Both the position numbers and the translations under genes were made by a program. Positions 6,601-63,730 of a stretch of DNA of 64,000 nucleotides are shown here, piece by piece. The first letter of the stretch is position 1; each line of letters begins with the position of its first letter. The DNA comes from Asterochloris sp. CNOR1 (lineage: Eukaryota > Chlorophyta > Trebouxiophyceae > Trebouxiales > Trebouxiaceae): contig OZ017763.1 in assembly GCA_963969365.1 (NCBI GenBank), positions 558,001-622,000 on the forward strand. Reading direction: 5' to 3'. The notes beneath the pieces were generated by a model, which ran no database searches, was not told the origin of the DNA, and saw only the letters and a list, made by a program, of their open reading frames with translations.

Positions 6601-9600
6601 ATGCCCGCCCTTGTAGCCCCTTCACCCTTCGCTCTGGAGGGGCCCACTGGCGGCCAATGGTCAACTCCACTGCCATCCAGGTGGCGGCAGGGCGCCCCAT
6701 CCCTGTGCTGCCCCACCCAATCCCAGCCGGATTCACCATCCTGGCAAATCGCCCAGAGCCAGGCACGTCGCTGCCGGTCCACTTTGACCCAGAGCTGGAA
6801 AAGCTGAGCCTGGTACACCTGGCTGCCGCCTGCAAGGAGGCCTCAGCTGCTCTCAGCAGGGAAGGGACCCCAGCAGCCGCCGGCAGCGGCACCGGCGTGC
6901 CCTTTGGTGGGTGCAGCTTGCAGGTGTCACACATGCTATGTACTTGAGCTGGCCCCCCTGTGTCCTGATCGATGAGCTGGCATGCTGACAGCTTGAACCT
7001 CACAGCTGCTTATTGAATATTGTGCATTGGGTGACATAGCTGCCAAGGGTCCCTGTTCAAACATCATCAATGACTGACAGGTTGCAAATGGGAGCTTATT
7101 GCTCAGGAGGCAGTCCTCCAGCAAGCTGTGCTGAAGCTGGCAGCAAACTACAGCTTATGCATCAATACCAACTCTGCAGCTCCGGCTCAGTGCAGCGCAA
7201 ACAGGAATCAGGGAGGTCAATGTGTGCTCTGCAGATAGCCATGGGGCCAGCGACAGCAGCTCTCTTGCAGCACCATAGCGCGCAGCATCACCGCCCTGCA
7301 GGCATCAAGGTGCATCTCCCATGCCAGTCGGCAGCTTTCAAAGCCTGACATACATTGTCTGCAGGCAGCCCTCCTGGTAGCTCTGCCCTGGTCATGGCCA
7401 GTGTTGACAGTAGCACCGCCGGCAGCATGGCTGGCAGCTTGGAGGAGGAAGGCCCCACGCGAGCGTCCCTGGATGGGGACAGCCATGTCACCAGCCCGGG
7501 TGGGTGGTCACCTCCCCTTTGTGTAGTCATGTCAGGGTCATGGCACCAGCCTGGCGGTCGACACCCTTTTTACAGTTTGGTTACTATGGTCGGCAGGACA
7601 GCCTCCAGGATGAGAACAGAGGAGCCCAGATGTTCATGATCGCCTGTTGTGTACAACCCTTTTGCTTCTGTGCATCTACGTTGAAGTTGCACATGTGATG
7701 GCTGCATCATGGTGGCCATCGCATGGCAGCATAGCTGCCTCACCAATACGACAGTTAGGCTTCGGCATTGATGATTTGGTGCTTCTGCTGGCAGAAGCTG
7801 CTCCAACTAACTAATTAATTAGCTTGGGACTGCTTCATGCAGACCCTGCTGGAGGCCGCAGGGGGACAGGAGTCAATGCAGCTGTTGAGAGGGCAAGGGC
7901 CTCCTTTCAGGTCAGCCCAGCAGTAGTAGCGTCTGCGATGGCTGTAAAGCTGCTGCATTTGCAGGGCTTATGCCGCAATCATGGGGCTGCTGCTGACGTC
8001 TGCCGCCTTGGAGAAATCCTCAATGCTGCTTGGCCCTATGCTACTGCCTGCAGTCTCGACGTGCACTTCGGCAATCCTTCCATCCTGCTGTTTGCAAGCC
8101 TACTACCAGATTGTGCCACCCTGCTGTTCCGTTTGCAGGATGCCAGAGTTGCTGCACAGGCCAGAAGGGCAGCTGGCGGGCCCCAGACTCCCCTGCAGGC
8201 CATGCTGCAGCGTCCTCTGCAGGCAAGTGTTGTAGCCGTACTTATAGCTCTGCACAAGGTGTTCGCTCTGCTGTGCCCTGCTGCGGTGCTCGTTGCTGAC
8301 TCATGTACAAGCAGAAAATTCGTGACTTCATGAAGTCCCAGAGGGGTGAATTCCAGTGACTATATGCAGGTGGACGACAGTGTGGGCTTCCTGCGGCAGC
8401 GCATCCAGGAGTTCAATGCCTGCATCCCCTATGCAGGTAGGCTTTTCTGAGCAGTCTCCTCAGGGCATGGCAGCAAGAGGACTTGGCAACAATCGGTCTC
8501 TTACCAAGGCCTCTTGTATCAAAGGATGTTGCTGACCACTCATAGGACATGTTGAAGTATTCAGGACAAGTTCTCAAAATGAGGTCAGGGACCAGCGGCT
8601 TCTGCCCTGGTCTGAATAGAGGGAGTCGTGTTCCAATGTGCCTCCTTGTCAATGCGGCCGCGTAACCAACAGCTAGATAACGCAAAAGGCTGGCAGCAGC
8701 AAATCAATGCAATTCAATTCGTATGGCAGCACTCGGCCGCTGCACCGCTCAGCATCTGTACAGCCCATCTATTGGCAATATGCAGCAGAAACAGCTGCCT
8801 GTGCAGGGTGCTGAGGCTTGCACCAATGACTGCCTCATGCCAGATTGTGCAAGAATTCATGGCAGATCCAGCTCTGTTGTGGTGCCTATGCAGGCGTGTC
8901 TGCAGGCGCACGGGTGGACGAGGGGTGCCTCACCACCCTACTGGCACTGCTGCCAGCCTCCGCCAGCAACCTCAAATTGCCCCCACCTACTGGCCTGGAG
9001 GCTGTGCAGTACATTGCCGTGCTGCAGTGCCTGCAGCGGCTTGCAGCGTGCACCACAAACGCGGGAGTGATTGCTGCTGCCCAAGGTGAGAGAGGTGCCG
9101 ACTGCTATGATGACAGCACAGTCAGTGCATGCTGATGAGATGATGTCAGGGCCCCACAAAAGAGATGTGGCAGCGGTCATCGCTGCTGCTGTGATGACGC
9201 CATTGCCAAATGCATGTTGAGTGGCCTCTGTAATGGCCCCACAAGAAGCCTCTGGAAGTGAAGATGTGGATGTATGCTGAAGCAATCTGATCTCGAAATA
9301 CACACTGCAAAGCCATAACAAGATGCCTTGCTTTGGAATATGATCTGCGCTGACGCTGGCTTGCCTGCCAGCCACCAGAGTGTGCAGCCACCTCCAGATG
9401 CAGGCCAGCAGACGCCCATTATTCTGCAGCAGTGCCGTCAGTAGCAGCTTTGTGCTGTGATGGTGTACTCTTCTGCACCCTGTGCCGCATATGGACATAT
9501 ACATGTCTCCCTTGCCAGGTAGGGCGGGGCGCCAGAGCCTGTGTCGCCCTGTCCTGTAGATAGATTTGTTAAATGGCTGACATCCCTCTGCCATGCAGGC

Positions 9601-12600
9601 TGGGGCACAAGAGCCTCTGCTGCCCTGTCCTGCAGCCCCATCTCATCCTCTCAAGTGGCGTTTGCTTGTGCTGTGCTGCAGGCCGCGGCGCCAGGATTTT
9701 TGCCGCTCTCTCCAGCGGGCACGATCATGTGGCAGCCGAGGCAGCCAGGCTGCTGCTGCGCCTGTGGGCGCCGGGAGCAGCGCGGTCAGGGTCCAGCGCC
9801 GGACATACACCTGAGGTGGACCCTGCAACTCTGGCCATCTGTGAAGATGGGGCTGCTGCCAGGCGCGCTAAGACCAGCCTGCTGGGCCTGGCGGGCAGGT
9901 GGGCTTCGGATCTACACTGCCATGAGGCTTGACTGCATGGAGAGTCTATGGGATCCAGGGCAGCAGGCAGCAGCGTGTGTGCAACTGTCATGTGTGCAAG
10001 TGTCTCGTGCATTGTGCGGACTGCAGCTGGGGTGACCGACAGGCAGATGGAGTGAGCTTCACAAGTACAGCCAATGCCCTGCTGCACAGCAGGTCACTGA
10101 GCATGCAGCACTGCCCGGCTTGGTGTGCGGGTTTCTGGGCTTTTGCTGCCATGAGGGATTAAACTTGAAATGACAGTCCACGCCAGCTGGCAGCAACAGC
10201 ATCTGCAGAATTTCATTTTCACCACAGCTGCTGTGGTGCCCAAAGAGCGCAAAGAGCCAACTTCCTGCATTGCAGAGCAGACGACTCAGCAGAGGGGCAG
10301 AGCGTCCCCATTGCCTGCAGGCATGTCGCAGTGATGGAAGCGCTCCACTTGCTGGCTGTGCAGGGTAGAGTGCCTTCCAAGCTGAGGGGCGCCCATGCCA
10401 GCTTGAAGAGTCGCACAGACCATGTCACTGCCTGCAGGCCTACTTTGCTGATGGGGGTGCTTCAGGCGGAGAGGCCGCCCAGCGCGCTGACAGTGATGAC
10501 AGCAACTGAGGCAGTTGCGGCCGTTGTGTGTGACCCTGGGGCCCGGGAGACGGACCCTATCATCCTGTCAGCCGTACTCCAGGTCAGCTGTATGTGTCCT
10601 CAGTTCTTTGAGACGTGCAAAGGAGATCAACTCCAATAGCCCTCTCAGCCATGCTCCAGATAAGCTGGTGGAGGAGAGCTGGCATGCAGTGGCAGCTGTG
10701 AGTTCAACACCCCTCCCCCCCTTCTTGAATAAAATGTGATTGGAGGCTGCAACGGCAGCCGACTGCATTTATGGCACAATGCAGCAGGCAGGCAGCTTGC
10801 TGACGTGGTTCTGCAGACTTAGTGCCACCTGCAGAGGGCAGTGTACCAGCGGATAGACTGGCTGGGCAATGGCTCAACGGCTTTGACAACCCAGCAGGCT
10901 GCTTGCTGACATTACATGCTGGCGCTCGTCTGCAGCAGGCAGCTGCACAGGCAGCGTGCCCCTCAGATTGCTGCACTCTGCATCAAGCAGGTTCCTCACT
11001 GCTGCCTCTGCAGGAGGCAGCTGTGCTGGGGAGACCCCTCTTCAGCCTGTTCAGCCACGCGGCTGCCAGGGTGCAGGACTGCGCAGCTTTGATTATGCGG
11101 GCAGTAGCGCAGGGTGGTGCCACCGCAGCAGCGCCCATGCGCGAGGCTGCTCTCAAGGAGGGCGCCATGCTGCACCACCTGCTGACGGCTACCAGTGGAC
11201 AGGTGAACCACATAGCAAGTGCTGCCAGTGGACAGGTGAACCACAGAGTAATAGCTGCCAGTGGTCAACCACAGAGCAAGGCTTCAAGGTCTGCTCAATT
11301 GGCAGCATGCCTGAAGCCAGCAGTCAACATTCTACCGCAACATCATTGCTCCTGGCTGTGCTGCATTATGTGCTGATGACAACCATTGGACAGGTGGGTG
11401 AAAGCTTCAGGGCCCTTTTTTGCACCAAGACTTGCACTGCACACCTGATAGTGTATTTAGCAGCTGTTGATGTGCACTACTGACATTTGTGGTGCTCAAC
11501 TGCTTGATGGTGCCCACAAGGTGGGCGACATGCTGCACCACCTGCTTGCCGCTACCAGCAGTCAGGTGAAGTGCACCTCTGGGGTCTGCACAACGCTTGA
11601 GACGGCCCTGTGCAGGATGCTGCCCGCAGTTCTGGCACCTTTTTGCACCTTGCGGCAATGGTCACAGTTGTCCAAAGGAGCACAGCTGTGTCATGGTTGC
11701 ACCCTCTGTCCAGCAAAGCAACCAGCACTCCCATGAAGGGCTCAGAAGCTCTCACACAGAGGAGTGCAGCCTCCAGAGATGCAGCCATTGCTGTGCATGG
11801 TCATCTACCTCATCCAGCAGGCAGTCTTGTGCTGCAGGGCCCCAGAGCGAGGCTGAGCCAGGACCTGGTGGGCCTGTGGGCAGACGAGTATGGGCCAGCT
11901 CTGGCGCTGCTGCGGCGCTTGCTGCCACCTGGGCTCATGCGCTACCTGAATGTCAGGCAGGAGCAGCCTGCACAGGCGCAGGTGGGTGTAGCATTGCTGA
12001 TTGCCTGTACGTTGCCCACGCTATTCAGGCTGCCTGGCAGTGTGTGTATACTGGCAAAAGTGCTTGCAACATCACTGCCAAGTCAGCTTTTGATGACTCT
12101 TGGGAGCACTTTGCTGCTTTGCCTACACGTATGTATAAGAACGTCCCTCAAGGCACTGAGGGAGGGTGGAGTTGACACAGTCTCTCCGGCCGTGTCCTCA
12201 CTCTGCTGACGGCAAGCTCACTTATTAGCATAATGTTGCTTGGACACTCATGCCCAACCTGCAGAGGCCACTGATGTCCATCAGCAACTCCCCCAGCCTG
12301 CCGGTCCCTCTGCTACAGCAGCTGCCAAGCCCGACAGCTCAGCGTAAGTACCTCCTCGCTCGATACAGGGAGCAATTCTTGCTTTGAATGCATGCTACAT
12401 GGCTGCTTGTGCAAACACTCGTTTCCACAGCTGCCTCCTCTGCTTGAACATGTCATGTCTGTTTGATACCTGCCATGTGGTGTGCAACCCGCTTAAGTCA
12501 CCCATTTGAACGACCTCTGGCTGTCAACAACATCCTGCCTAGCATTGACAGCAGTGCCTTGGTCTCCTCCTGCCTGCCAGCAATGCACCTGGTCTCTCTG

Positions 12601-15600
12601 CAGGGGGCCTGCACGGGAACTGGGCAGCCCTCTGGGACAATGTCAGGCGTGACCACAGCCATGCCGGCCTCATTTGGAACCAGGCCACCAGGGCAGAGCT
12701 CAGGGAGGCCTTGCAGGTGCATTTCCATTGTCAAGCTTGCATCGCGTTGCCAGACCCTGAAGATGAATGCACCATACAGCGGCAGCTGTCTGACACCAAA
12801 AAGCACCAGACAACCGGATGTATCCTGCTATTGCCGCTCTGCTGGTGGTTGCAAATCGAGTGGCAACAAAGTTGCACTTCAAGTGGCACACTGGTGTGCT
12901 ACAGCCTGCATCCTCATACCAGCGCTGCAAATGCCGTTGCATGACTGCCCTCTGTTGGGTTGAGCCATGGTTGGTATATGCAGGCTGGCGTCAGGTGGGT
13001 GATACATGCGCTTCAGTGGCTGGCTAGCAAGCTAGGCTGCAGTGAAGCAAGCCTCTAGGGCGCAGTCTGCTGTTGCTGTGTCTGCTTGGGTGCTGCACTC
13101 CATGCTACAGTGCCATGCTCCAAGTAGTGCCTTTTGCAGGTACCTGGCTGCATGCCTCTCTGCTGGACGGTCACATGTTGACCGCGCTGCAGGCAGAGGA
13201 GTCTTTGCCCCGCCAGGGGTTCCATGTCTGGCAGACAGCAGTGCTGTTCCTACAGCCATTCAACTGCAGCTGGTCTTTCACAGTTGTCACACTGCAGGCA
13301 AACCTCTGTGAGACACGCATGTGCTCAGTGGAGGCAGCTGTGTACCTGAGAGTCCCATTAATGCTTGCAGGCAGAGGAGTCCCTGCTCCGCAAGAGGCCC
13401 TGTGCCTGGCGGACAGCAGTGCCATGCCTGCAGCCAGTGGATGCAGCTTTGCACCTGAAGCCTCCCATTGATGCCTGCAGGCAGAGGAGTCCCTGCTCCG
13501 CCAGGGGCGCATGCGCTCGGCAGATGGTAGCAGCACCCCACCAGTCTGGAATCATTGGGAGTTCAGGGTGCACTACAGCAGCTTGAGACAGCATCTGTGC
13601 CTGGCAGGCGTATACATACGCCTGCTCCTGGAGGGTGTTGACAAGGCAAGCCTGGGGATTCCCGCCTTGTGGCAGCAAATGGGGCAGTCTCTGAGCTGCC
13701 TCACAGGCATGTAATGTTGCTGCCAATTTGAGAAAGGCCAGACGCTTACTGGCAAACACCTGTGCCTGCCTGCATTCCTAGTATGCCTGCCTGGCTCTAA
13801 TGTGTGGGATACTGATATGGTAAAGTGTTGCGCTGGTGGGATGGGCTGTGACTTGCCCGCATGTGTGACCTTGTGACTATGCTCCCAAGCTGCAAGCCAG
13901 TCTGCCTGTTTGCTCTGCAGGGTGCAGTGACCAAGGTGCCTAACCCAAGGGACCTGTTTCAGGCTCTATACCATCACTTCCTTTGCCAGGCAGATGCAGG
14001 GCTGCAGATGCCGGCCCTGCAGCCTGATGCCCGGGGAGGGGAGCAGTCCCAGCAGTTGGGTGAGCTTACTTCATCCTGGGAGTGTGTACTGTGTCATTGA
14101 GTCTTGGGGAGGGTACGGGGTGTGCTTCAGCTGTGCAATAGCTATGCATCAGAGGCATCCCTATGCGTGATGCGAGCGCCAAGGATTAGCCAAGCCAGCT
14201 AGGCGAGCGTGCCACTGGCCTTTGTAAATGGCATGATTGGGCCGTCAGCTGCCGCTGGAGTCTAGGCAAGGGGGTGCCGCACTCAGGCTGTGCAGAGCCT
14301 CAGATGTATTCTGTGGCGTGACGCTGGTGCGGCTCAGCAAGCCTCCTGCTGGCGGGACAAGGGCACTCAGCATGGACTCCTCACTATGCTGCACATCTGG
14401 CTTGGACAGGAGGCATTGACAGTGTGTGGACACCCACCAATGGCTAGAAAAGCTTAAAGAAGGTTTGCTCTGGTGGGTCAGGGGTGTGGTGTCAACACGG
14501 ACTTGGGTGTCCTCACTGAGGACTTGGGTTTCCTCACTGTGCTGCACATTGGTGTAGCTGGTGTGGTTCAGCAGTGCTGTACACTAGAGTTATGTGAGTG
14601 CACCACAGGCAGCTTGTGCAGGTGGCATCGTTCCATCGGGAGGCAGATTTCGCACCGTGTCAGCCGTCCAGCTGGCTGGTGTGCATCAGCAGCACCATGC
14701 ACCAGCCCAAGCAGCCAGACGAGGCTGCTCATGGGTCTTCAAGGCTGTGGTGTCCACCTGTCCTTGCCTTAGGCTTCTCACTGTGTTGTGCATTGGCATG
14801 GTGGGGTGCAAATTGAAGCTTGCATCTGCAAGGTATATCATTCAAGGTCAAGGCGTCCTATCTTGTGCACAGTGCAGACCAAGCCCTGCTTTGCTGTTGC
14901 TCAGCTCGCCACCTGAGAATCGGCAGCCTTGATCTGCCCTATCTGGGTGTGCAGGGCATTCAGGCGGCAGTGGCGGTGGCGGTGGCGCCTCGCATGCGGA
15001 GGCTGAGGCTACTCGCGAGCTCTGTGTCCGGGCCCTGGTGGCAGTGTACAGCGTACATGCAGGCATCATAGGTGTGTGCTGCTGTGTCCAAGTGACCCTG
15101 CTGCGGCTTCCTTTGCGGCAGAGAGCTGGTGCAGAATGTGCAGCAGAGCCTGCTGGCAGTCAGTCACTGACCAGAACGCTGCCGGAACCCAGCCAGTGCA
15201 TGCCGTTGGCCCCTCCCTCACTTGTTGCTTGGTTTTCCCTGCGCACACTCCGTTGACAAGAGCAGTCACCTGTTTGCCCTAAGCCTGTTGCGCTGTTGAC
15301 TGCAACCTTGCTGCATGGCATCAGGGCCCAGAGACCCTGCCAGAAGCAGTGCTTCACTTTCCTCCCCTGACCTGTCGGATCTGCTGCGTGCTGTGCTGCA
15401 GGCCCTGCTAGTGGGATGAGCCCTGCTGGACTGCACCCTGAAACATTGTTCGCATTAGCGCCGGCCGTGCTTTTGAAGGTTCACAAGCTTAGAGGCGTGC
15501 AGGAAGCAGTGCACATGTGTTTGTTTGACCCTACTGACTTGCATGCTGTGCTGCAGGTCCTGTGGATGGCATCAGCCACCTGACAGCCCTGCTGGACCGC

Positions 15601-18600
15601 ACACCCAGCAGGCGTTTGCGTGGGCGCCTGCTGCAGCTGGTGGAAGCCCTGCTGGCGCCTGAAGCTGCCCATGCGGATGACTCAGCCGCCAGGGCTGCGC
15701 GGGAGAATGGGGTGGCCTTCATGGCAGCGGGGGGTGTCCAGCTGATGGCTGACATGGTGGCAGGTGGGGCGTAGCTGCATCCCTGCCCATGCTGAGTGTC
15801 AAGGACAGTCGGTGGTGCTGAAGACGTTCAGCTGCCTGCAGGCTTGCTAAACACAGCACCTTGTCGGAAAATGCAGAAGCAGCAGGGAGTGGCATGCAGA
15901 TCAGCATGTGTTTTTCAAAAGGGTTGCAGGATCAGCAGCAGGGCAGTAGTGAACCGTGCTTGGGCGAAGGGGCTGCTGCTCTTTGTCCAGAGCCCTGTTG
16001 GACACCTGTATGTGCCCTTGTCGCGCTCGGGGCCCCTCACAGGTCAACATTGCCGCTAGCATGTGCTCTGAGCAGTGAGACACTGCTTCCTGGACCCATG
16101 CAGGCGCCCATGAAGCCCAGGAGCGGACCCAGGCCCCCCTGCAGACAAACCTGATCAGCAATGACAGTTTTGCGGAGCAACCGCAGGTGTGGCGCTACTG
16201 TGGGCCGGCCTTGCCCCAGGCGCAGTCCAGAGGCAGCCTGCAGCCTGAGCAGCCTGGCGCTGGGGGCCTTGAAGAGACTGGAGCAGGTGGGTGCCTGCCT
16301 GGTCTGCTGGATGCCAATAGCTGCATGAGCAGGCGATCTGGGTGCTCACCAGTGTCTTGCCTCCTGCAGCACAGCTTCATAGATGCTGTGGGTACCCTCA
16401 GGGGTGCTGAGCAGCTCTGACCCCCAGACATGTGTTCCAGCCAGGCCACTAACCTGCACATCCTGCGGTGCTGGTGTTGTCGTCTAGGTGCGTTTCTGGG
16501 AGCAGAAGCCCTTTGCTGCAGAAGAAACCCCTGATCGAGGCAGAGTCTGAGCAGGTCTGCAGCAGAAGCCACTTGCTCCCAAGCTCCACGGCCTGTCCCA
16601 AACAGGCAGACTCCATTGTGTGTTGTGGCTGTCCCCTGCAGATGGCACCCACCGCACCCCTCTTACCAAGGCAGAGATCAAGCAGGCCTGGAGCAGGGGC
16701 CACCTGCAGCCAGGATCCCTTTTCTGGGCTCCAGGCATGCAGGATGCTGTGGCTCTGTGGCACATTCGTGAGCTGCGGTGGCTGGTGTCTGCAGATGCAG
16801 GTGGGTCTTGTCAGCTCAGAGCTACCTGTGCAGAGGCTCTCTGGCACATGTGCAGGCTTGTGGTGACTGCTGTTTGAAGGCCCAGGCGGCAAGCTACATG
16901 CTGGCCTGCATACCTCAAAGCATCCATGCAATGTGGCCCCCGCTGCTGACCTGCACTGAGCAGCAGAGGGCCTGCTGCAGCCTCGTCCTTCTGCAAAGGT
17001 CCGCGGTGCAGGCAAGCCAGAATCAATGCACCCACATGTATCCATTGCAGGTCTCCTCATGCCTCTGCCTCTGCTGAAGAGGTCATGTGTGTGTTGCAGA
17101 CGGTGACGTGCTCAGCTACTATTTGAATGGCAACCAATTTTCTGATCCAAGGCAAGTATTTGTTCTGGCTGCAGGCACCCTTGGGCCATTTGCAGCCGCT
17201 GAAGTGGCCTTGCGTGTGCTGCACACGCTGGCGCGCCTGCAGCCTGCAGTGGATCTGGCCACAGGGCAGACCCTGCAGCCCCTGCCGCAGGCCCACAGGG
17301 CCATTGCCTCGCCAGAGGTGCTGCCCTACATCGTCCAGGCAAGCCAGCTTTGTGGGTATGGACACAATGTGTTTACCAGACTGCACAGTTCGTGCTTGCA
17401 GGAGTGCTTGTGTCTGCTTCAGGACTGCTCTTCAGGAACATCAGTTGCAAGGCTGGCTGCTATACTTGCTTCCAAGGTGGTGATGCCCTCCCTCCTCGAC
17501 CCTTCTCAGCAGCACAGATATGCAGCCAAGCAACGTGAGGCAGGCACAAGGATGCTGTCTTGCAATGCCAGTGACGGAGCAGAGGGTCGCCAATGCGATG
17601 CCTTGGCATCCATAGCCAAACTTTTGCTTTGACATCTTCCCAGCTGCCCGCTGTTGTACAGCCCCTACTCAGGTGTCACTGCAGATGGTGTTGACGTAAA
17701 GTTATGTTGTGAGTATCGCTGTCCTCTGGTCACAAACCCCTAAGTCTTCCCTTGTGCTGCAGGCCCTCCTAGCAGAACTCATGCTGGTATCCCCCTTTGC
17801 TGCCCCACTAGACTGCACAGACTGTGTTGCCTGCCGCCCTGCTGCCTCATGCCTCCTGCTGCCGGGCGGCTCTTGCCTCCTGCTGCCGTGCCAGCTCTCG
17901 CATGTCTGTCGCCGGTGCAGGTTGGCCAACAGGAGCCAGCACTGGTAATCTCATTCAGCTGCACCAGGGGGGCTGTGTTGGACAGCAGGGCTGACAGTGC
18001 TCAAAGGGCTGCCTCCCTGCTGCAGGTCCTGCTGACAGGCGAGCCGGCGCTGGTGTCCCTGTCTGCTGCCCTGCTTGAAGATATTCTGCGCAGCAATCCT
18101 GACGCCCTGGCAAGCCTCTACCAGACGGGGGCCTTCTTCTTTGCACTGGCGTACTGCGGCTCCAACCTGGCTGAGATTGCCCAATTGTTCAGGGTAAGAT
18201 ACACACATGACATGTCATGTGCCCTGTCTGGTCCCCCAGCACCCTTCACCAGCAGGCAAATGACACAAGCATGCCTAATCAAGTCCTGCTGCTGTATGCC
18301 ATCTGCTGGGGTGCATCACAGCTGCTGCCCTGCATCTTGACACTTTCGTCCAGTGGGGTTTCCAAGCTGTTGCCCAGGAGCCCTAGGATCCATCAAAGAC
18401 GTGCCTCACCCAATAGTGCATCTTGTATGTGCTGTGAGCCAGTGCCAGCCCTTCATGCACAGCCAATCTGTGCTACATGAGAACCTGCCTGGTGCAGCTT
18501 CCAGCTGCACAAGCTGCTTAGCATTGGAACCCCTCAGCAGTCATTCCTAGTGCACCAGCACTTGGTAGCCCACCCCTTGTTTCTTGTAGGTGCCTGCACT

Positions 18601-21600
18601 GGGAGCCCAGATGTCTGTCACAGGTGCTCACTGCTTCACTGCAGCTGAAGAGAAACGCTGTGCACACCCTGTAGGTCTGCCACATGGAGCAGCAATTGAA
18701 CTCCGACCCCTCCTCTCCAAAAGCTGGAATGCTGTCAGCTCACAGCTTCTGCGTGGGCTGCTGCCTCGAAGCCTGCACTATATGAGTGACTGTCTTTAGC
18801 CCCAATCACCAGCATTGCCTTCCCTGCAGGCCTGCCACCTGCAGCGGCAAACCACAGCCGGCCCCTCCTACATAGGGGCTGGCGTCTTGTCAGCGCATAG
18901 CTTTCCGCCTGAGAGCATGTCGCACACATTCAATGCAATGGCCGCCAAACACAAAGCACACCCTGCCCATGCAGGCGTCCCACCTTCAGCAACACTCCAT
19001 TGCCAACCCCTCCTCCCCCGGAGCTGGCGTCCTGTCGACCCGCAGCTTTCTGGGCGGGCTGCTGCCTGAGAGCCTGCTATATGTGCTGACGACCTCTGGC
19101 GCAGGGGCTTTTGCAGCAGCCATGGTGGAGGACACCGACTCGCCTGAGCTGGTGTGGACACACCGCATGAGGGCTGAGCGCCTTGTCCCCCAGGTGGGGT
19201 TGGAAGTCACGCTTTGTTGCTTTGTGGCTTGATCAGTCAGCCTGGCTTTGTATGCTTTTTTGAAATGAAAACTGCATGCCTTTGTGGCAGCCATGGTGCT
19301 GGTTTGTACACATGGGGCTGAGTACCTCGTTCCTTAGTGGGCTGGCTTAAGATCGACATGAGCTGGATTTTGGCAGCTAATTGTTGGCCTGGCTCTGCTG
19401 CCTGCTCAGGTGAAGGCTGCATGCCTTCCTGGCAACCATGAAGGAAGTCACAGATGACCCCAAGCTGGTGTGAACATAGGAGGGCTGAATGCCTTGATTA
19501 TTCACGTGGGGCCGGGGTGCTGAAACTTGACAGAGTAGCTGTCATTGGCTCACCAGGCGGTGTTGCCTGGGGGTGTGTGGGGGGAGGGTGGGAGAAGGAC
19601 TGTGGCCCCGAGTGCCTGTGGTGCACTGGGTTCAGTGCTCTATTGGTGGCTCTATGAGGGTGGCTTCACTTTGGCGGGGCAGCTGCCTTGTCCTGTCCTG
19701 TCCAGTCATAAGGCAACATGGATGTAGCCTTGACTGGTGCTTTCGTTTCCAGATCAACATGCTGTTTTGGCACACTGGCATCCTTTGGATTTTGCCAGCA
19801 GATGACCTGGTCTAGCTTCAGGGTACATGAGTTGAGACTGCACTGCTCACCAAGCATGCCTTTCCTGGTGCTGCAGATGCTGCACCACCTGGCTGACTTC
19901 CCCCGCAAGCTGACTCAGCACAGTCACGCTGTCTATGAATATGTGGCCTGCCCACCTGTTGGTTATCCAGAGCTCACAGACGAGATCTGGTGTCACAGAT
20001 ACTACCTCCGCAACCTGTGCGATGCGGGCCGCTTCCCTGAGTGGCCCATCACGAATCATGTGCAGCTGCTTCAGGTTTGTGATGTTTGGCCCTTGAGTTG
20101 GCTTCTACCTCCATCTTGTGTGTCTCAAGTGCCTGACCTTGCCATCTTGAAAGCGGCCAAGCAGGTGCAAGGAAGCGTACAGTGCAGAGCTGATACGCAT
20201 TGAAGCCCCTTAAGCTTGAACTGCTGCAGGGGCTTCCGCTGTGGGCCTCAACAGCCTTTCAATGCGTGGTGCAGGCGCTGCTGGGCGAGTGGCGAGCTGA
20301 GCTGGCACGCAAGCCCCTGTCAATGACAGAGGCAGACGCCTGCCAGGTGCTGGGTGTGTCTCCCAATGTGCAGGGGCATGTGGACGAAGAGGCGCTGAAG
20401 GCTGCTTACAGGTGCGGTTGAGTGCACAGTTTGCTGCAAAATAGTGCATTTTGGGTGCACCTTTGCTGGCAGGTGACGAGGGAGTCGGCCAGGCTGAATC
20501 CATCAAGCTGCATGCAGGGATGTGAGTTTGTTTGGTGGGGTCAGCATGGTCGTGTAGCTGGAAAAGCACCAAATTCTGTCCAGTGTAGGGGGCACAGGCT
20601 GCACATATGGGTGCAGAACCAGGACACCGTCAGTCAACAAGCCAACAACAAAACCCAGCACAGTACTCCTCAAGTGGCAGCAAAGCTTGCGAGGGCCAAC
20701 TGTTGTGATGGGGGCAGGATGGTCACAGGTTCACCGTGATATACTCCAGGTCTGGCCAAGCCATGTGTGCTGTGCAGGCGCCTTGCACGGCAGCACCACC
20801 CGGACAAGAACCCTCAGGGGCGCGACAAGTTCCTGGCGGTGCAGAAGGCATATGAGCGCCTGCAGGCTGGGGCTGCCAAGGGGCAGGGGCCCCAGGCCTG
20901 GCGCCTGCTGCTGATTTTGCAGGTGCGATGCTGCTTACAGCAGCTACATTTAGCTGTCAGGGGCGTTTGCTAGGCGCAAGGGGCTGCTTGACCCTCCGGT
21001 CAGTATGCATACAGATGGGCGTCGCCATGAGGCCTGTTGCAGTGTCCTGTGTAAGCTCTGTCGAGCACTTTGCAGCAGCCGCTCTGCCTGGACGCTGGGC
21101 ATCCCAGTGTGTCCTGTGCAAGGGCAGCATCCTGTGGGAGCCTCTCGAGCACACAAGCCCTTTGCAGAGGTGCAGCTACCTCACACAGCGTCGGTGCCAT
21201 GCAGGCCCAATGCGTCCTGTTCCGGCGCTACCCTGAAGTGCTTCAGCCGTTCAAGTATGCTGGGTACCCCATGCTGCTGCAAGCCATCACCCTGCCCAGC
21301 AGCAACCAGCAGGCAGGGGGCCAGGGGACGGCTGGCGAGGGACACCAGCTTCAAGAAGGCAGCGCAGACGAGTCAGTACACTTCCTGGACCCCTCCAAGA
21401 TGCCGCAGCTGCAGGTGGGGTGTGCATGGCTCAGTATCGGACTAGCTGCGTGGAGCCTGAGGCAGATGCCTACCTCCCCACTGACATAGCCTTCTGTGTG
21501 CTGACATAGCCATCGGGGCCTGGCACAAGTCCATGTTGCGTCACCTTGTGCAGCTCAGATGCTTATTGCACACCATGCTGGGTGAGAAAGTGAGGTCCTC

Positions 21601-33105: not shown

Positions 33106-34327
33106 TGTTTTCCCTTTGGACATGGCAGCATGAGTGATTAGACGGCTCACATTCATAATTTCATTGGCCCTATACATACAATGCACATTAAGCTGGTCCT
33201 GATGCAGATGCACCCTCCTGAGTAATGTGACCTTTCAAGCATGTGCAATTGCTGGCTGTCATGCTGCTGCTACAGGCACAGCAGATCACAGGCAAGCTCG
33301 ACAGCCTGCAGTTCCGGTAGAGGTGTGGCAGACAAGTGAAACTCATCTCAGGCACCCAGCAAGTAAGAAGGTCTTGGCTTGCAGCCTCACTTGTGAGGAC
33401 TTTCAGTATCCCAGCTCATCTGGTGGTTGTCAGTGCACAGCAGGCCAGCAATGTCCTGGGCAGGCAGATGTCAAGCTGTCTGGTGTGCCACCAATCAGAG
33501 AAGGCAACCACCAGCTCCGAGTGCGTGTTAAGTGCAGACAGGCAGTTGAAATCCACTTCATCAACAGTCAAACATCAGTGCTTACTTGGTCCTGTTGAGA
33601 GAAGACTCCTGTGTCTTCTAGCTTGGGCAGCTTGGTTGGCCCACTGCTGGACGTTTCTGCCTGCCGTGCCAACTGCTTCGTTCCCCATGCTTCTGGTTGT
33701 CACCATTGGCAGCCTCAGGTGAGAAAACTTTCCTCACACTGCAATGACGATTTGCTTGGGGTCTTGCCCAGAAGGGGAGGAGCAGCTGCCGCCTACTGAC
33801 TCTGTTCTGTTGAACTTCAGGTCTTCTGCAGGACTGTGTGGTTGCAGATCTGGTGAGCAATGCTGCTTACAGTCTTAGTGACTCATCAGCAAGCAAGGGA
33901 GCCCAGTAAATTACAACAGGGGACTGGCAATCAAACGACATGTAATGCACAAGCTTACGTTTCGAAAAGCTAGCACAGCATGGCTCAAGAGCAGATGGTG
34001 ATGGCAGATAACGAAATGGTTGCATGGAACGCAATCAATATTTTGAGCAGGAGAGGGGAGGGTCCGCCTCAGAGAGGGAAACAAGAATATCATGGTATGG
34101 GCAGCTGCCCATGATGTTATCGATTGGGACTCACTGGAGGATGGGTGGCTCTTGCTCTTGCAGTGACCAGCGCATGCCAGATTGAGAGCCAGGGTGCTCA
34201 ATGGCTGCTGATTGGCTAGCCAGGCTCGTGGTGAGCCAAGGCACCTTGCACAGCTCTGTGGTGTCTGCTGGCTGCCAGAAACCTTGGCTAATCAGGCCAG
34301 GTGAGCTGTACAGGCACCCCACAGGGC
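33106..34327. other. Convergent intergenic region between RME-8 and kinase stops
   Basis: The two flanking genes converge here, so this stretch should hold both 3' UTRs. It contains a 123-codon plus-strand open frame (33227-33598) without recognisable features. Base composition is less GC-rich than the neighbouring exons. No RNA gene or repeat was seen. Confidence 0.5.
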
Positions 34328-40833: not shown

Positions 40834-41023
40834 CTCTTGGAGTGTTGCAGACAAGGGGCCAGACTGTCCAGTGCAATGCTGCTGATGGTCTGCAGCTGAC
40901 GGCAATGCTCTGCAAGGAGTCCTTCCAGGCATCAAAGGCTGAGTCATGTCACTCAAGGTGTATGAGTGGAACAAACATTACTTGCTCAAACAGCAAGGGG
41001 AGTGGGGCTGTCAGAGAGGTGCC

Positions 41024-53198: not shown

Positions 53199-53767
53199 CT
53201 GACAAGAACCACCCAGCCATCACGTCAATTTTTCAGTGCTCATGCGGCTCCAGCACCTCCTGCTGACCATAGGCGCCGTGCTGCTGTCAAAGGGCCAGGG
53301 GTTCCTTCTCAGACTGACGCAACTGCTCAGCCTGAAGAATAGCGGCCCTGTAGTGGCAGAAGAGACACTCTGACTGTTTTGGTCTGGCCCTCATCACACT
53401 ACTGCCATTTGATGGGCTGAATGCCCTGTCTGACGCCTAAGCAGTTGTGCTGCTGGCCAAGCCAGTGTGTAGGATGCAGCAGGTGGTGAGTACCAGCAGG
53501 AAAGCTGCTGAAGGCAGCCACATGGTGCTTGGCATTCAGGAACACTCACACTGCATGAGCTGCTGCATGGGCAGCAGCTGCACCAAGTCATCTTGATGTG
53601 CTGAGCAAACGGAACCTTTGCATCCTGACTAACAGCCAGACTGAGCTCCCAAAGATGCTTCCTGTCTGACTGTCAGACAGTCAAAGTGCAAGCTAGATTC
53701 CGTTGCTGCTTTTCCAGCAAGGGGAAGCGAGAGGAGGGCAAAGTGCCCTCAAGCAAACTGTGGGATC
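53199..53767. other. Upstream region of the BTB gene
   Basis: 569 bp before the BTB start. Short open frames on both strands, including a plus-strand stretch reading LLLTIGAVLLSKGQGFLLRL (53253-53312), could be a missed exon, but no consistent gene was built. No repeat was seen. Confidence 0.35.
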
Positions 53768-56598
53768 ATGTCAGAGCTTTGCAACCTCAACGTTGGAGGG
53801 GGCTTTTTCACTACCAGCAAGGCCACCCTCATGAAGGTGAACCTTCTTGCTGGAGCTTGCGTGTCCTGAGCACCTGTAGACTCAGGAGCGATCTGGAGGC
53901 AAGTCAATCGGTTCCGACAACTTCAAGAATTGACAGTCGCAGCAGAGGGGGCATTGCTGTAGTCTGATCTACAGCTGTCTGAGAAGCTGTGCCTGAAGGC
54001 TGCCTCAGAGCAGAGCATGCAACTGTGCCTTGACCACACCTGTGTCCTTTTGCAGGACTCTGACTCCATGCTGGCACGCATGTTCTCCTCCGCATGGAGC
54101 AGCAATAGGACCGATGATGAGGTGCGGCGCATTCGCCCCTGCTGGTCATTCGACAGCTTGGCAAGACTGGGCATCAGATCCTGCAGCTGAGGCACTCAGC
54201 TGAGCCGCGCGAGAGTCCCTGAGCAGCGTATGACACACCAGCAGCTAGCAGCCTCCTCAGCATGATGGGGGGCCCAGATTAGCCCTAGGTGCCAGAACGA
54301 GGCACCAGGACCTCCAGCGCAGACGAGACAGGCCTGCTGTGGTGCTGCAGGGGCGAGTCTTTGTGGACAGGGATCCCAAGCACTTCAGGTTGATCCTGAA
54401 CTTCCTCAGGGACGGAACAGCAGCGCTGCCCTCGGACCCTATCGAGCTGCAGGAGATCAAGCAGGAGGCAGAGTTCTTCCAGGTGGGGGACACACAGTGC
54501 AACAGCAAGCAAGAGCTTGCGGCTTGATGCACACTGGGACTTGTGTCTCTGTCAGTGCCAAGTCTCTGCCCCGTCTTCAGGGTTGGCAGACGTGTTCGCT
54601 GCTGTGCAGCTAAGCTCTTACTATGCCTGCTGTTGAGGAGAGGGCCCCAAGCAGTGCACGCTAGCTGCCGCAGTCCAGGCACATCAGGGAGCAGTCCTTG
54701 CATCGATCTGGACTTGCTGTGGTGCTACCTCATGCACTGCTGGAGCCAGATGTGCCCTTGCCTGCCTGCAGCTGGAGGACCTGAAGCAGCAGGTGGTCTG
54801 CCACGACCACTGGAAGCCGCAGGGGGCCGCGCAGCTGCGCAGCAGCATCGCCCAGTGTGTACAGGTGAGGCAAGAGGGTAACAGCTGTGGGAAGAACTGG
54901 ATGTCCTGATGGAGTGCACCTTTGGTAGTCCTCTAAAGTCAGTTGAGCAGCTCATTACACCCCGGAAAGGCTGACAAGCTGCTCTGCAGATGCAAGGCGA
55001 CAGGCAGTGCACGGTCTATCAGGCTGCTTGCCAACCAGAGGCTGCAGAACAGTAGCCTTGTCGTTGCAGGGGGACAAGCAGCTGCGAGAGGCAATGGATG
55101 TGATTCTGGAGTGCGCCTTTGGCAGCATACCCTACACCGACTCCACCTGTGTCCCCAGCTCGTCGACCTGTGTGGATGTTGCCCTCAGGGAGAGCGCATA
55201 CAATCCGCTGCACCCGCAGCACCAGCTGCAGCAGCAGGACGAGACACTGTACGTCGCCTTCCAGCAGCACATCCAGATCAAGGTGAGGCTGGACTGCAGT
55301 TGGTTGGGTGCTCTGCTTCACGTGGACATCCAGGTGGGCCACAGCTGTGGTTCCTGGCTAAGCAACAACTCCCTGCATCTTGAACAGCACAACGACTCCA
55401 TGCATCAGCAGCATCAGCAGCAGTGGCACCAGCAGGGCCAGGATGTAGGCATCTGCCCACCACCTCATGCCCATTCCCTTGCCAGTGCTGTGCAAGGAAC
55501 TACTGAGCTCCAGCACAGGCTGCGCCTGTTTGCATGGAGCTGAAGCGATAGCCTCAGGCAGGGGCCCCAATGGCCACCTGTATTGCAGTGCAGGAGAAGA
55601 TCAATGCTGAGGGGAGGGAGCCTGCTCAAAAGATGAGCAGACTGCTTTTGCCAGAACCAGCTCACAAACAGCTGCACGAACCACCTTGTGTCCTGCCATG
55701 CAGGGTGAGGTGAATTGTGAGGTGTATGACGCCAAGCACGAGTCCCACCTGCTGCATGAGGAGGGGAGGTTGTCTTATGACCCCAGCGCTTACTCACCTC
55801 CCAGCTCACATGGCCGCCAGAGTCGATTTCACATCAAAACCATGGAGGTCAGCACCAAACCTGCCCTCGCCTGTCTGCACCCCACTTGCTGCACTGACTG
55901 TGAGTCAGTCCTCGTGAGTGTCATGGCCGCTGCTGCAGCGTCAAGTGCCTATCTCCTGTTTCATTCGCCTCAGAACCTATCACAGACACTGGGCTTGGGG
56001 ACTCCATGCTCTTTTGCTGCTCTTTTACCTCATCTGCAGATGCTTGCCTTGCTCTAGCACCTGGCGTGAACCTCCCCTTATGTGAGAGACTCCTGGCAAC
56101 AGCACCTCTTGAGCCGCAGTCTGTGGGTGCCTCAACAGGCACTGCAGAGCTCTGCTCCTGCAGGCCCCAAGCTGGATACAGCCAACGCGGCTGATGCATC
56201 ATTGGCCTGCTTGTGTGTCAGGGTCAACTGCTGCCTCACTATGCAGGACCCCGCTCTGTGCGGTAGTGCCTTGCTTCACCCACTTGCCCAGTCCTTGTTT
56301 CCTCCAACCTGCGAGCTGTACCCAGACATGCTCAGGCCTGCCAGAAGCAGCACTGGCACTTTTGCTGCAGGTGTATCGGCACCACTGCGTGGGGCAGCTG
56401 TCAGAGAAACACCGCCGCATGAGGGACTGCGCACTGTACATAGCCGGCAACGTGAACGCGACCAAGTGGGCTTTGGAGTTGTATGGCTTCCGGGACGTGA
56501 CCATCCCAATCCAGGCAATGCAGATGTCAGATAGCGTGGATGGCACAGTGTCCCCTGTGCTTCTTAATGTGAGGTTGAGCATCAGGCTCTCTCTGTAG
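53768..56598 (+). CDS. BTB/T1-domain protein, KCTD-like
   Basis: Seven exons (53768-53836, 54056-54121, 54351-54482, 54772-54864, 55070-55282, 55704-55847, 56371-56598), all in phase 0, give 314 residues. The first three exons build a potassium-channel-type T1/BTB domain: LNVGGGFFTTSKATLMK, DSMLARMFSS, then GRVFVDRDPKHFRLILNFLR and an EFFQ ending. There is no transmembrane segment, so this is a soluble KCTD-type protein, typically an oligomerising scaffold or a cullin-3 substrate adaptor. Residues 91-314 are a conserved-looking but unnamed region (GDKQLREAMDVILECAFGSI, HHCVGQLSEKHRRMRDCALY). The start MSELCNLNVGGG places the T1 strand right at the N-terminus, as in short KCTD proteins. The last exon may have an unused donor at AATGTGAGG; the present stop is TAG at 56596. 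Confidence 0.85.
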
Positions 56599-56990
56599 CC
56601 CTCAAAAGTGCAAACCTGAGCATCGGGCTCGCCACTTAAGACCACCCCCAGTGTTTAAGCCCCCTCCCAAGCATAGCAGCCCGGCTTCATGCCGCTGCAT
56701 GGCCTCGGGCCAGGATCTTTGGTAGCTTTGAGTTGCACAGCTTGGGCACAGTGTCTCTAATGTCTGACAAGTCCCCCTCTCAGCGACAAGGCATATTGCA
56801 ATTTTGACTGACGAACCTCCAAACAGCTTGCTGAACTTGCACTTGTGAGTGATTTGATAGACTATTTCGTGAGCGCACTTGACTTTTTTTGGTGGATTTG
56901 CACATTTGCAAGTACAGTAGATAAGCATCAAATTATTTGACCTTGGGGGCCAAAATGCCTGCTCAATGCTCCTGTCATACTCTGCCAGCA
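56599..56990. other. Convergent intergenic region between BTB and AMT stops
   Basis: 392 bp between two stop codons, AT-richer than the flanks, with homopolymer runs such as CTTTTTTTGG. It presumably contains both 3' UTRs. No gene or repeat was recognised. Confidence 0.5.
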
Positions 56991-59900
56991 TCAGTCCTGA
57001 GCTTCCACCCGCAGCAGGAAATCTGGGTAGGCGCTGCCCCCATGGTCAACAAAATCAAGTCCAGCTATCTCAGTAGCAGTGTCCACTCTTAGCTTGTTGA
57101 AATATCTGAGGGTGCCAAACAGAGCCAGGCTGCAGGCGGCAGTGAAGGCAGAGATGGTGATGATGCCCAAAAGCTGCACCCCAAGCTGCTCGCCGCCTCG
57201 CCGCGCTGGGCTAGCGAAAAAGAAACCCCCACACACCCTGTCATAGCCTTCGTGGTTCTGGGCAATGTAGGTCGGCTCCCCAAAAACGCCGACGCCTACA
57301 GTCAGCCAGGCCAGCAGTTGTCAGGGCAGGACAATACCTTCACACAGACCCATGCGTGCATGTCAGTCTTGAAGTTGAGTGACTGCAGATTGATACAGCA
57401 GCAGGTTAGCAGCGATCATGCAAGATGCCCTCTGGCATCTGCCACAATCCCTCACCCCACCTTCCCCCTCTCCCCCAGTCAAGACAGCCCGCATGCAGAG
57501 CTGAGAGGTGGAGAGTGCCTGATCTATGCTCAGGTATTTCGGTTTGCTGTGCTGACCAGTAAATGCTGCTCCACTCAACAGTCCACATGCACTGCAATGC
57601 AGCACGGATGACACTAATTGCAGCATAAGCTGCCCACAAAAGTGCTGCCTTTCAACACCCGAGACATTGTCGTCACATCTTGCATCATTCAGACCCTGAT
57701 GCATGGCCTGTGCATGGGCGCAGCCGATGGGTGGAGGATGGTTGGCTCACTGCTGGGCCAGGCTCTGATTTGCTGTATTGACCATTGACACTCCCTCTCA
57801 CCTAAGAGGCCAACCAAGGAGCAGCCCGCATGCACCGCTGAGGCGTCCAGGGGGTCATCAATGCGCAGGCACAACAGGGCTCGGGAGCACCCAATGTAGA
57901 CGCCTCCGGCGATGCACCCCAGCACAAATGCCGCCCTGCAGGCAAGGCACTTCATGTCAAGCTGCTGCATGCTTGGTGGGCAGCAACAGCTCAAGTCACC
58001 ATTGGCATGTTTCAAAAGGTGCATGCACAATGCACTGAGCAGACCTGCCAACAGCTCCCGACACCCAACTCTCAAGCGTAATACAGCTCCTAACACCCTA
58101 CTCTCAAGTGGGCGTAGCAGGGGTCCACCAAGGGCGCCAGGTCAGTGATTGCCACCATGCCCCCAGCACACGATCACAGCAGGTGCAGCTGAGCAAAGGC
58201 AGCAAGCGTTGGTCATGCTACTTTGGAGGGAAGCTATCGGTCACCCATTCAGGCAGCACAGCTGCAGCTCACCAGGGATCCACAAAAGGCGCCAGGGCAG
58301 TGATCGCCACCATGCCCCCCAGCACACCGTTGCAGCAGGTGCGAACCTCATAGGTTCGAGTGCGCAGCCAGGCCAGCAGCAGGGCAGTCAAAGCGCCTGC
58401 GCAGCCACAGATTGTGGTGTTGACGGCTGCCCTGGCTGCCACCGTGCCGCGCTCGTCGCCTCGCAGGTAGGCCGGCCCTGCAGGCATAGGTGGAATGGCT
58501 CAGCACAGACCTGCCATATGGGGTCAAGGGAAACTCAACTGTACATGACCCTGAGGCACGGGCCGGCCTGCTGATGGGCTGGCCCTGTAGGCAGGCGACA
58601 GGCTGAGATGAAGACATACTGCCCAGAAGTGAGTGTTAGCATGCTCAGCGTCCAGGTCTGACCGGCCTGCACACTGACAATGAAGTGCAGCAGCTCACCG
58701 ATGTTGAAGCCATACCATCCAAACCAGAGCATGAGCGTTCCAAGCACTGTGCTTTCCACGTTGTGCCCAGGGATGGGCTTCACAATGGCCCCATCAAAGC
58801 GCCCCAGGCGGGGGCCCACCTGCCAGGCTGCAACAAGCCCTGCCACGCCGCCTGCAGGCAAGGACAGCATCTTGGCTGTGGCTGTGGGTTGATGACCCTA
58901 GCCACTCCTGCTGCAATGCATGAAGTCACACCTGTTGCAGGGTGCAGCACACTGGGACCTTTACAAACACGCTTGAGCTCATGTTGTGCTGCCCCCTGCT
59001 TACCCTCATAAGATCTAGTCCAGGGCCTGCACACTGCTATCCAACAGAGACTGCTCGAGGGCTGGAGCAGACAAGATGGGAGGGGTCCCATAGGCTGGCA
59101 GCCCCTGTCAAGGGCATTGCACCTGCGCAGACTGATAAAAAGGCATTGATATAAAAAACCACCAGGACAGATGCATCACAGAGAGCTCATCTGTGAAAGT
59201 TAGGCTGCCTCTTGCTGTTCCAGGCAGGTACAGTGTGTGGGAAAACGAAGGCATAAGCACCACACAAAATTCCACCTACGAGGAAGGTCCAGGTAGGTCA
59301 CAACAACCAAGATAGAAGCATCACAGCAAGCTCACCTACGAGGTGCACCATGCTGCCTCCCGCAAAATCCAGGTAGGTGCAGTGCGTGGCAAAGGTGGTC
59401 AGCCACCCCTGCGTGACCCAGTGCACCACCAGTGGGTACACCAGCACTGCCATCAGGGGTGTGTAGGCAAGATAGGCCTCAAACTGGGCTCGCTCTGCCA
59501 GGCACCCGCTCACAATGGTTGTGGCCGTCATCACTGCAGGCAGGGGGCACACTGAGGACTGGGGGGTTGCTGGTAGCCATGCAGTCGAGTGCAACAAGGC
59601 GCACACGTGTATGTCTCTGGCACAAGACATGAAAGCAGTAAGGTGCGCAACCCATCTGTCTTGCCCTCTCTACCCCTTTGTGGCAGATGCCAGGACACAG
59701 GAGCATGCCAGGGCAGAAACGCAGTGTAATGGGCTGCCAAAGAACCCTGAGGTGCTGCTGTGGCGGCAGAAAGGCTACTCAGCAGAGCATATAGCCTGTG
59801 CTTCGGAAGACCTGCTGCACAGCAGCACGTGCAATTGCACTGAACCAGCTTCCAAAAGGAGGGACTCACGGAAGGTGGCGGACAGCACCCAGAGCGCTGC

Positions 59901-62149: not shown

Positions 62150-63730
62150 TCACATCTGGGAATGCTCCCAGCCAACATACATGAATTTGCGGTTGTAGTA
62201 GTTGACAGTCCTGACTGCAGCCCCACAGGCAGCTGCCAGAGCTGCCAGCAGCAGCACCTGGACAGAGAGAGGCTCTGCCCCTCGCCCAAGGCAGGCTGAC
62301 ATGCCCAGGAGGCTGGCCACTCCTGTCCACGTGGCAGCTTGTTTGGCCGTCTGCAGCTGCCTCAGTGTCTGCAGCGCAGCCGAGATGTGGTGTCGGGCAA
62401 CAACACAGGTGGACATGGACAGTCGGCTTGCTGAACACCATGCAGGACTAGTTGACTGTCTAGTGACAGGTAGCAGACTTGATGTGCAGCCGATCAGGTG
62501 TGTGTGTAAGGGCCCAAGACACCCAGACCTGCCGCAGCTGTCTCCCTGGTATCTGGTGTGAGCGCCTCAGAAGCTCATTCCTTTGCAGCAGCTGCAGTAA
62601 GCAGTGTGCTGCACAAAGCAGTCCAGAGCAGCCAGCCCCTGGTGTGGGCCCCTTGTTTGGGCCCGACAAAGAAGCTCACTGCCTGGCAGGTGCTGCACTT
62701 CACAGTCTGCCTTGCATAGTGTAGTACCTGCGTTGTCAAACAGCTTGAAGCCAACCAAAACACAAACGGCTCATTGGCTAGAACGCGACGCTGCAGTGCG
62801 CAGTATGCTGTATATTGCAGCCCATGGCAGCACAACTTTGGGAGTCAGCCTGCCAGCCATTCAAAACAAGCTCACCCCTCACCAGGCGCTGTGGTGTGCA
62901 GTGAGAAAGGTCTCCCTCTCTGGCGGAGACACACGCACAGTGCAGCTGCTGCCATGTGCAGACAGCTGGGAATGCAGTCAACAACACACCACCACCTGAC
63001 TGAGCCTTAGATCCTGACTGAGAGTAGAGAAGACAGCAGCTCACCGCTTGGCAGGCGCTGCAGTGTGAAGTGTGCTGGGCATGCCTGTTCAGAATGGTCT
63101 CCCGGTCTGGCAGACCTGACACAGGGTGCCTCAGCGGCTCAGCCACAGCGCCGGCTCCCTGGTAGCGGGGGCCACCGCCGCCAGTGGTCTCCCACCATCT
63201 GCGGAATGCCGAGCTGCCCCTGCAGGGGAACAGGGCGCTGCAAGCCACTCTTGCCTTGCAGTGAGCAAGTTCCTCTACCGGAGTCTGAAATCATCTGCCC
63301 AAATGCTGTGCTGCCACTGCAGGGCCACATCTGTACTTTGAAGGTCTTCCTTGGCTTGTTCACTGGTGATGTCCACACCTCACTGATGTGCAGAGCTGCA
63401 TCTGGAGTGGCCGCAGCACAGCGCATGTCTGGCACGGGCACAAGTGCATGCCCATGCAGGTGCATGCTCTTTGGCTCTGATTGTGATGGACTGTCCATCG
63501 TCCAAGTGCGATTCGCGGCCAGCCGCATAGGCCCACAGCATCAAGCACACCCCGTGGCCAGAAGCGGAGCCTGCTCTGTGCTGCAGCTCACCTGTCAGCA
63601 CTGGCAGGCATGTAGTACAGGCGGCTGAAGCTGCCAGGCTGCAGCCTCATGTCGGCTGCGCGGATGGCTTCTGCCTGGGAGTGCAGGAATACGCAGTCCC
63701 CGTCAGTCACGTTGTGCAGGTGAAGGTGCC
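62150..63730 (-). CDS. Rieske-type oxygenase, PAO/PTC52 family, C-terminal part
   Basis: Three exons on the minus strand (63730-63592, 63219-63045, 62368-62150) encode the last 177 residues; the Rieske and mononuclear iron domains must lie beyond the right edge. Family: chloroplast-membrane oxygenases such as pheophorbide a oxygenase (chlorophyll breakdown), PTC52 and TIC55. Evidence: DGDCVFLHSQ, the YYMPASADR segment, FRRWWETTGGG, NRHAQHTSHC with the CxxC redox motif HCSAC, then LRQLQTAKQAATWTG and a final pair of hydrophobic helices ending in a Lys/Tyr-rich tail (YYNRKFMYVGWEH), like the two C-terminal membrane segments of PAO. Phases agree across both introns. I cannot tell PAO from PTC52 with this part alone. 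The stop is TGA at 62150. Confidence 0.85.
62571..62930 (-). repeat. Four downstream copies of the Rieske exon donor region
   Basis: On the plus strand the real donor reads GCTCACCGCTTGGCAG at 63039. Related segments start at 62870 (GCTCACCCCTCACCAG), 62769 (GCTCATTGGCTAG), 62674 (GCTCACTGCCTGGCAG) and 62573 (GCTCATTCCTTTGCAG). Steps between copies are 101, 95 and 101 bp. On the minus strand these are decayed copies of the CxxC-encoding exon end followed by GTGAGC-like donors. Confidence 0.7.

Follow-up and report, generated by a model that had tools for sequence, protein, structure and literature searches.

The nearest described process found for the pattern reported here, copies of exon edges in the adjoining introns of the green alga Asterochloris sp. 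CNOR1, is repair-mediated duplication by capture of proximal DNA, giving 'doublets' (Pace et al., 2009, PMC2671141; Thomas et al. as cited there). In that paper, donors seldom include exon sequence (of 824, only 4 hold a partial exon/intron stretch and 4 a full exon) and one exon copy is described, in opposite orientation. A second comparison is the potato RdRp gene, for which tandem genomic duplication of intron-exon structure with intron gain is described (PMC4974935; Rogers, 1989, and Hellsten, 2011, described there). The DNA analysed here, the window, is a 64-kb stretch of contig 18 (positions 558001–622000) from an intron-rich genome of 56.38 Mb in 21 contigs, and its intronic copies are local, run in the same direction as their source, originate from the adjacent exon edge and decay without coding constraint. 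Tandem exon duplication for alternative splicing likewise leaves exon sequence repeated in a neighbouring intron; the present copies differ in comprising edges only and in being dead. No genome with such a density of copies at exon edges has been reported to our knowledge, and a full-text search of the open-access literature, judged by titles and the starts of abstracts, found no description of the pattern.

The sample comprised 314 kb, namely the window with 50 kb of right flank (a 114-kb block) and one block of 100 kb from each of contigs C1 and C10. Banded alignment (score at least 34, pairs 25–1000 bp apart) identified 144 same-direction near pairs (73, 25 and 46 per block), 51 of which start in the window and 29 of which are of low complexity and were left out of class counts. 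With an equal number of offsets, distances of 5–6 kb gave 2, 1 and 1 pairs per block and distances of 12–13 kb gave 1, 0 and 0. The copies thus lie near their source as proximal repair duplications do, with 0–2 pairs per block at 5–13 kb. Inverted near pairs numbered 3, 1 and 2 per block, against a far inverted background of 0–1. As in the duplications of PMC2671141, short copies have been placed near the DNA they derive from, in some cases splice sites included, and the copied exons are unconstrained. Whereas proximal repair duplications occur in either orientation, the copies here run in the same direction (144 direct vs 6 inverted) and, unlike the duplications in that paper, are concentrated at exon edges; because of this orientation bias they are not classed as plain proximal repair duplications or doublets. 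The potato-type duplication (PMC4974935) resembles the present case in that existing splice signals are carried, and a 94-bp array and a few other loci are of this kind, but most copies here are not adjacent and the dataset shows no new introns. Copy spacing equalled intron length (within 10%), unlike in intron gain of the Rogers type, in only 2 of 79 pairs. Unlike introners or dispersed elements, one array searched against the whole genome matched itself only, the search being limited to that array.

Exons and introns are predictions of a hidden Markov gene finder written for this study, with label-free training on the 314 kb and no annotation used. It converged on the donor CAG/GTGAGC (cut after CAG) and the acceptor CTGCAG/G (cut before G), with a mean exon of 164 bp, a median intron of 312 bp and 472 introns with both flanks; the gene models in the 314 kb had no internal stops. 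For 389 of these introns (83 short introns were dropped), exon edges were compared with their own and with foreign partners. The first 80 bp of an exon matched its own upstream intron at a score of at least 30 in 23 of 389 cases, compared with 1 of 3890 for foreign exons; for the last 80 bp and the own downstream intron the counts were 24 of 389 and 4 of 3890, and the own intron inverted gave 1 of 389 for each edge type. The intron on the exon's far side, or three introns away, showed little or no excess of edge matches, and the small excess of 5' edges against the downstream intron appeared under one of three scoring schemes (1.0% vs 0.11%, strictest cut-off). An initial annotation of the window had proposed that introns hold copies of adjacent exon edges and had named similarity to unrelated exons as the telling comparison; the proposal was borne out, own matches far exceeding foreign ones, and its low-complexity alternative fails.

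A looser search found a copy at 72 of 887 eligible edges and at 9 of 887 with a foreign intron swapped in; net of this control, the source of intron material can be traced at roughly 7% of edges, about one in 14. Counted per 50-mer, a copy in the adjacent intron was present for 35 of 573 at the exon edge (foreign 1 of 573) and 7 of 479 for exon bases 50–100, and 48 of 2521 intron 50-mers had a copy in their own intron (foreign 7 of 2521). Random placement would give 37 exon-involving pairs, whereas 66 were observed, and no high-complexity pair had both copies wholly exonic, for which 7.6 were expected. Copies at a score of at least 27 cover 3146 of 186 503 intron bases (1.7%; filtered search), which does not sustain the description of introns as built from such copies. 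Density varies with region: at a score of at least 30, the window block has 31 copies in 158 introns, contig 10 has 22 in 145 and contig 1 has 6 in 169. The contig 1 block (C1:1000001–1100000) is about five times poorer in edge copies per intron than the window block.

Within the window, 21 junctions among 95 introns have a copy at a score of at least 30 (RME-8 14, AMT/Rieske 3, kinase 2, BTB 1, FLOE-like 1), and 24 at a looser cut-off, on both strands and at both donor and acceptor edges. This agrees with the initial count of more than fifteen affected junctions on both strands, and the two other contigs behave likewise; RAD51D, also listed there, has one junction-spanning copy. Copies of complexity below 0.78 were excluded from the window-junction, flank-profile, codon-position and boundary counts, whereby the 94-bp array was lost. 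Six of seven submitted model proteins or pieces had Pfam matches (kinase, Rad51, BTB_2, Rieske with ammonium transporter, RME-8_N and DnaJ), and the FLOE-like N-terminal piece had no Pfam match. The ammonium transporter (AMT) match is near full-length and sits in one merged model with Rieske; the FLOE-like model is similarly fused with ankyrin, so that some intergenic DNA has probably been counted as intron. The gene and copies, in window coordinates, are as follows.

2605..33320, + strand: RME-8-like gene, gene model of 51 predicted exons, with Pfam RME-8_N and DnaJ on two pieces
4814..4884, + strand: RME-8, copy of donor-side exon end 4687–4756 (exon end 4752), 71 columns, 76%
6163..6195, + strand: RME-8, copy of exon-interior 6275–6307 (exon start 6236), 33 bp, 94%, both ends sharp
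11359..11396, + strand: RME-8, copy of donor-side edge of the exon ending at 11202, 79%
11511..11570, + strand: RME-8, copy of donor-side edge of the exon ending at 11202, 60 bp, 83%, homology ending 5 bp into the intron
13187..13219, + strand: RME-8, outer copy of acceptor-side edge of the exon starting at 13481, 91%
13326..13398, + strand: RME-8, acceptor-spanning tandem copy for the exon starting at 13481; partner 13435–13508, 86%, homologous intron flank
18667..18905, + strand: RME-8, two acceptor-edge copies (18667–18784, 18818–18905) of the exon starting at 18975
23153..23188, + strand: RME-8, copy of donor-side edge of the exon ending at 22848, 36 bp, 86%
23617..23674, + strand: RME-8, copy of acceptor-side edge of the exon starting at 23783, 81%
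25783..26300, + strand: RME-8, outer copy (25783–25827) and four 94-bp tandem acceptor-edge copies of the exon starting at 26301
28376..28533, + strand: RME-8, two acceptor-edge copies (28376–28420, 28475–28533) of the exon starting at 28597
29566..29868, + strand: RME-8, three acceptor-edge copies of the exon starting at 30058
36790..36814, - strand: kinase, copy of donor-side edge of exon 36880–36988, 88%
39102..39171, + strand: RAD51D-like, acceptor-spanning tandem copy for the exon starting at 39253; partner 39204–39274, 76%, intron flanks matching
46837..46949, - strand: FLOE-like region (weak exon model), partner of a junction-spanning duplication with 46552–46671
50797..50849, - strand: FLOE-like, copy of acceptor-side edge of exon 50580–50745
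54882..54928, + strand: BTB, copy of acceptor-side edge of the exon starting at 55070
58118..58186, - strand: AMT, copy of the final 70 bp of exon 58273–58477, 86%
59157..59244, - strand: AMT, junction-spanning tandem donor-edge copy of exon 59336–59533; partner 59302–59393, 71%

The AMT copy at 58118..58186 stops exactly at the junction, lacks a donor motif and carries a 1-bp frame shift. In the outermost unit of the 94-bp array, reading by eye in the exon's frame gave a stop. At edges with at least two copies, copy-specific changes fell evenly on codon positions 1, 2 and 3 (58/230, 50/235 and 50/229), whereas exon-specific changes fell mainly on the third (5/230, 4/235 and 21/229; a small sample, with site pairs that depend on one another), which indicates that the copies drift while the exon is held. 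The copies are non-coding and dead, as their description as degenerate had implied. No sign of selection against decoy splice sites was seen, invariant and other consensus positions being kept about equally.

Clear tandem cases include the 94-bp array, 13326/13435, 39102/39204 and, in the right flank, 106900/106976. Most copies appear to retain the exon edge only, in many cases together with some 6 bp of the splice consensus, beside flanks that look unrelated. The ratio of length to distance was at least 0.8 in 3 of 66 exon-involving high-complexity pairs and below 0.5 in 55 of them. When extended intronwards, homology mostly ends at or before the splice consensus, and strong flank homology (z at least 3) after masking of exon-derived sequence was found at 9 of 68 edges; unmasked, 12 of 67 pairs had z above 2 in the first 60 bp. 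Sharp-ended examples include B1 95882/95973 (94%), B1 94120/94450 (87%) and 58118/58273 (86%). Among 59 boundaries of cases without homologous flanks, 16 lie at -8 to -4, 9 at -3 to +2, 28 within the exon and 6 deeper in the intron.

We read the process as a known one, short proximal duplication, here concentrated at exon edges and ending at splice sites. The explanation that we hold with moderate confidence is short local same-direction copying, comprising junction-spanning tandem duplication in a minority of cases and short-tract copying from the exon in the rest. DNA pieces of about 20–110 bp would be copied nearby in the same direction, typically 80–400 bp away, and copies landing within introns would persist as harmless dead sequence, those derived from exon edges remaining recognisable longest because selection holds the exon and its adjoining splice consensus still. 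The minority would arise by tandem duplication spanning the junction; the rest may be made or refreshed with the exon as source when DNA is replicated or breaks are repaired, by template switching or gene-conversion-like repair, which would transfer an exon edge but not the intron sequence flanking it. Overall, introns would lengthen slowly and gain extra decoy splice motifs. Refreshing from the exon is suggested at one locus, the 94-bp array, where two dead copies differ at 11 of 28 spacer positions but at 7 of 60 in the exon-derived part (P=0.0045); the other adjacent dead pair (2 vs 3) showed no such difference (1/28 vs 6/60).

Several results weigh against this explanation, in which the copying step itself is something we infer. 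The 59 edges without strong flank homology retain a residual flank signal (mean z 0.62, SE 0.10), and 22 of 67 pairs have flank homology when the unmasked interval is widened to 120 bp, so that the tandem share is uncertain and may be larger. In the 19 pairs whose alignment runs 15 bp or more into intron sequence, divergence is equal in the exon and intron portions (101/551 vs 170/915), which speaks against refreshing there, in a set chosen by alignability. Acceptors taken alone fit simple decay if indels are frequent (P=0.05–0.14). Intergenic pairs numbered 3 against 13.2 expected, a deficit that a position-blind process does not predict, although it may be softened by intergenic DNA probably hidden in merged gene models.

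Random plain tandem duplication over exon-intron junctions, followed by neutral decay that leaves only the constrained exon part visible, would account for the genuine tandem cases (the 94-bp array, 13326/13435 and 106900/106976), and longer visibility would give the near two-fold excess of exon-involving pairs. The random-placement pair counts allow this alternative; simulations spoke against it. In the first, tandem duplications across the junction decayed neutrally while the exon and a 6-bp consensus were kept under constraint; with simulated copies matched to observed ones by score and identity, it predicted detectable flank homology in about 39–65% of cases. For donors, 8.5–13.8 of 22 were expected and 3 seen (P<0.0001, 0.0001 and 0.0065 at 0.1, 0.25 and 0.4 indels per substitution). 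For acceptors, 6.3–8.4 of 13 were expected and 4 seen (P=0.0075, 0.05 and 0.14 at the same settings), a flank profile close to that of the frequent-indel simulation. Real alignments contain few small gaps (42 openings to 633 mismatches, a ratio of 0.066 that leaves out large indels), and the lowest simulated setting gave 0.089. A further simulation, in which duplications were placed at random and had uniformly distributed ages, put the median ratio of length to distance at 0.88–0.97, compared with 0.29 observed, spacing being rarely filled, and expected about 1:1 exon-intron to pure-intron families; at spacings of at least 75 bp the observed families were 51 of exon-intron, 17 of pure-intron, 4 of intergenic and 2 of exon-exon type. 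An old duplication burst would raise this family ratio but would leave the score-matched flank test unaffected. Sharp ends in copies of 84–94% identity likewise disagree with plain tandem duplication, which we consider unlikely, if still credible. Of the repeated duplication across junctions originally proposed, the local, same-direction character and some genuine tandems stand, while most cases fit tandem duplication with neutral decay poorly. A conveyor, in which older intron flanks are displaced within the intron, was also considered and set aside, since flanks of copies (13 of 67 above the 95% control) and functional flanks (16 of 68) did not differ clearly from random intron pieces (8 of 61).

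The boundary peak at -8 to -4 (16 of 59, with 6 deeper in the intron) and a donor identity at background just past the consensus (0.26 at -10 to -6) would also be expected if the splice site itself set the copied unit, for example where RNA serves as the template or splice sites provoke breaks, with copies ending at the consensus. Against such splicing-linked copying, 28 of the 59 boundaries are intra-exonic, intronic consensus bases are often carried, so that the template would not be spliced RNA, and no candidate enzyme or intermediate is at hand; we regard it as distinctly improbable. A broader form, a splicing-aware mutational process that drives intron growth in this lineage by copying, with splice sites or exon-to-copy gene conversion fixing the units and each edge seeding decaying copies of itself into its intron, appears slightly less so but is still quite doubtful. 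Maintenance of the copies by selection as functional decoys or alternative exon edges would fit the splice-like motifs in many of them, but copy-specific changes show no codon-position bias, the splice motif is kept no better than the exon part (about 0.55–0.77 vs about 0.8, copies aligned to the junction), and it is absent from several good copies (58118; 67212 in the flank), making this reading very improbable. Shared CTGCAG-rich low complexity without true copies, for which 29 of the 144 near pairs would qualify, is excluded by foreign-exon, far-distance and inverted controls near zero, and we assign it a negligible chance.

Returning to short local copying as the preferred explanation, its products show no fixed period. 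The initial annotation gave periods of about 77–170 bp, but the spacing of exon-involving pairs ranges from 33 to 740 bp (median 153). Only 7 of 22 adjacent array spacings agreed within 15% (shuffled mean 4.5, P=0.14); a fixed array period, convincing by eye, was therefore dropped. Decay with distance, also claimed there, holds in the 94-bp array (25.9–26.36 kb), which decays outwards with 5, 10, 9 and 14 differences in 60, but not in general: the nearest copy outscores the next in 9 arrays and underscores it in 9, with one tie.

As fossil remains of local DNA duplication, the copies may help to explain intron growth, and they bear on the origin of intron sequence and on why some green algae have long introns. 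In relatives of Chlamydomonas the driver of intron length is probably ancient, according to a study of them (PMC8226300). Each living exon provides a built-in clock, with a built-in neutrality test alongside, so that the rate and mechanism of intron growth can be measured within one genome and tested in relatives; the copies also supply natural putative decoy splice sites. The G+C content of the DNA examined is about 58%. The published Asterochloris glomerata genome is similar in size and G+C, with 56 Mb, 98% of it at 56–62% G+C, and has 9 introns per gene (PMC6652019).

Some further features were observed. In all three blocks, predicted acceptors are unusually uniform (each position of TGCAG above 90%), and GC replaces GT in about 2% of the predicted donors, which the model permitted with a penalty. 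Imperfect repeats about 100–470 bp apart cluster at 62568–63077, within one intron of the fused AMT/Rieske model, and are possibly copies of an exon edge overlooked by the gene finder. Among 22 direct matches in a self-search of the window (E<0.001), the sole one more than 500 bp apart is a 27-bp match of 590–616 with 3046–3072 (96%, 2.46 kb apart). In the right flank, an intergenic tandem duplication with a period of 174 bp (block W 81715–82100; L023:7715–8100) can, in contrast to the exon-edge copies, be aligned over its full length at 69% identity.

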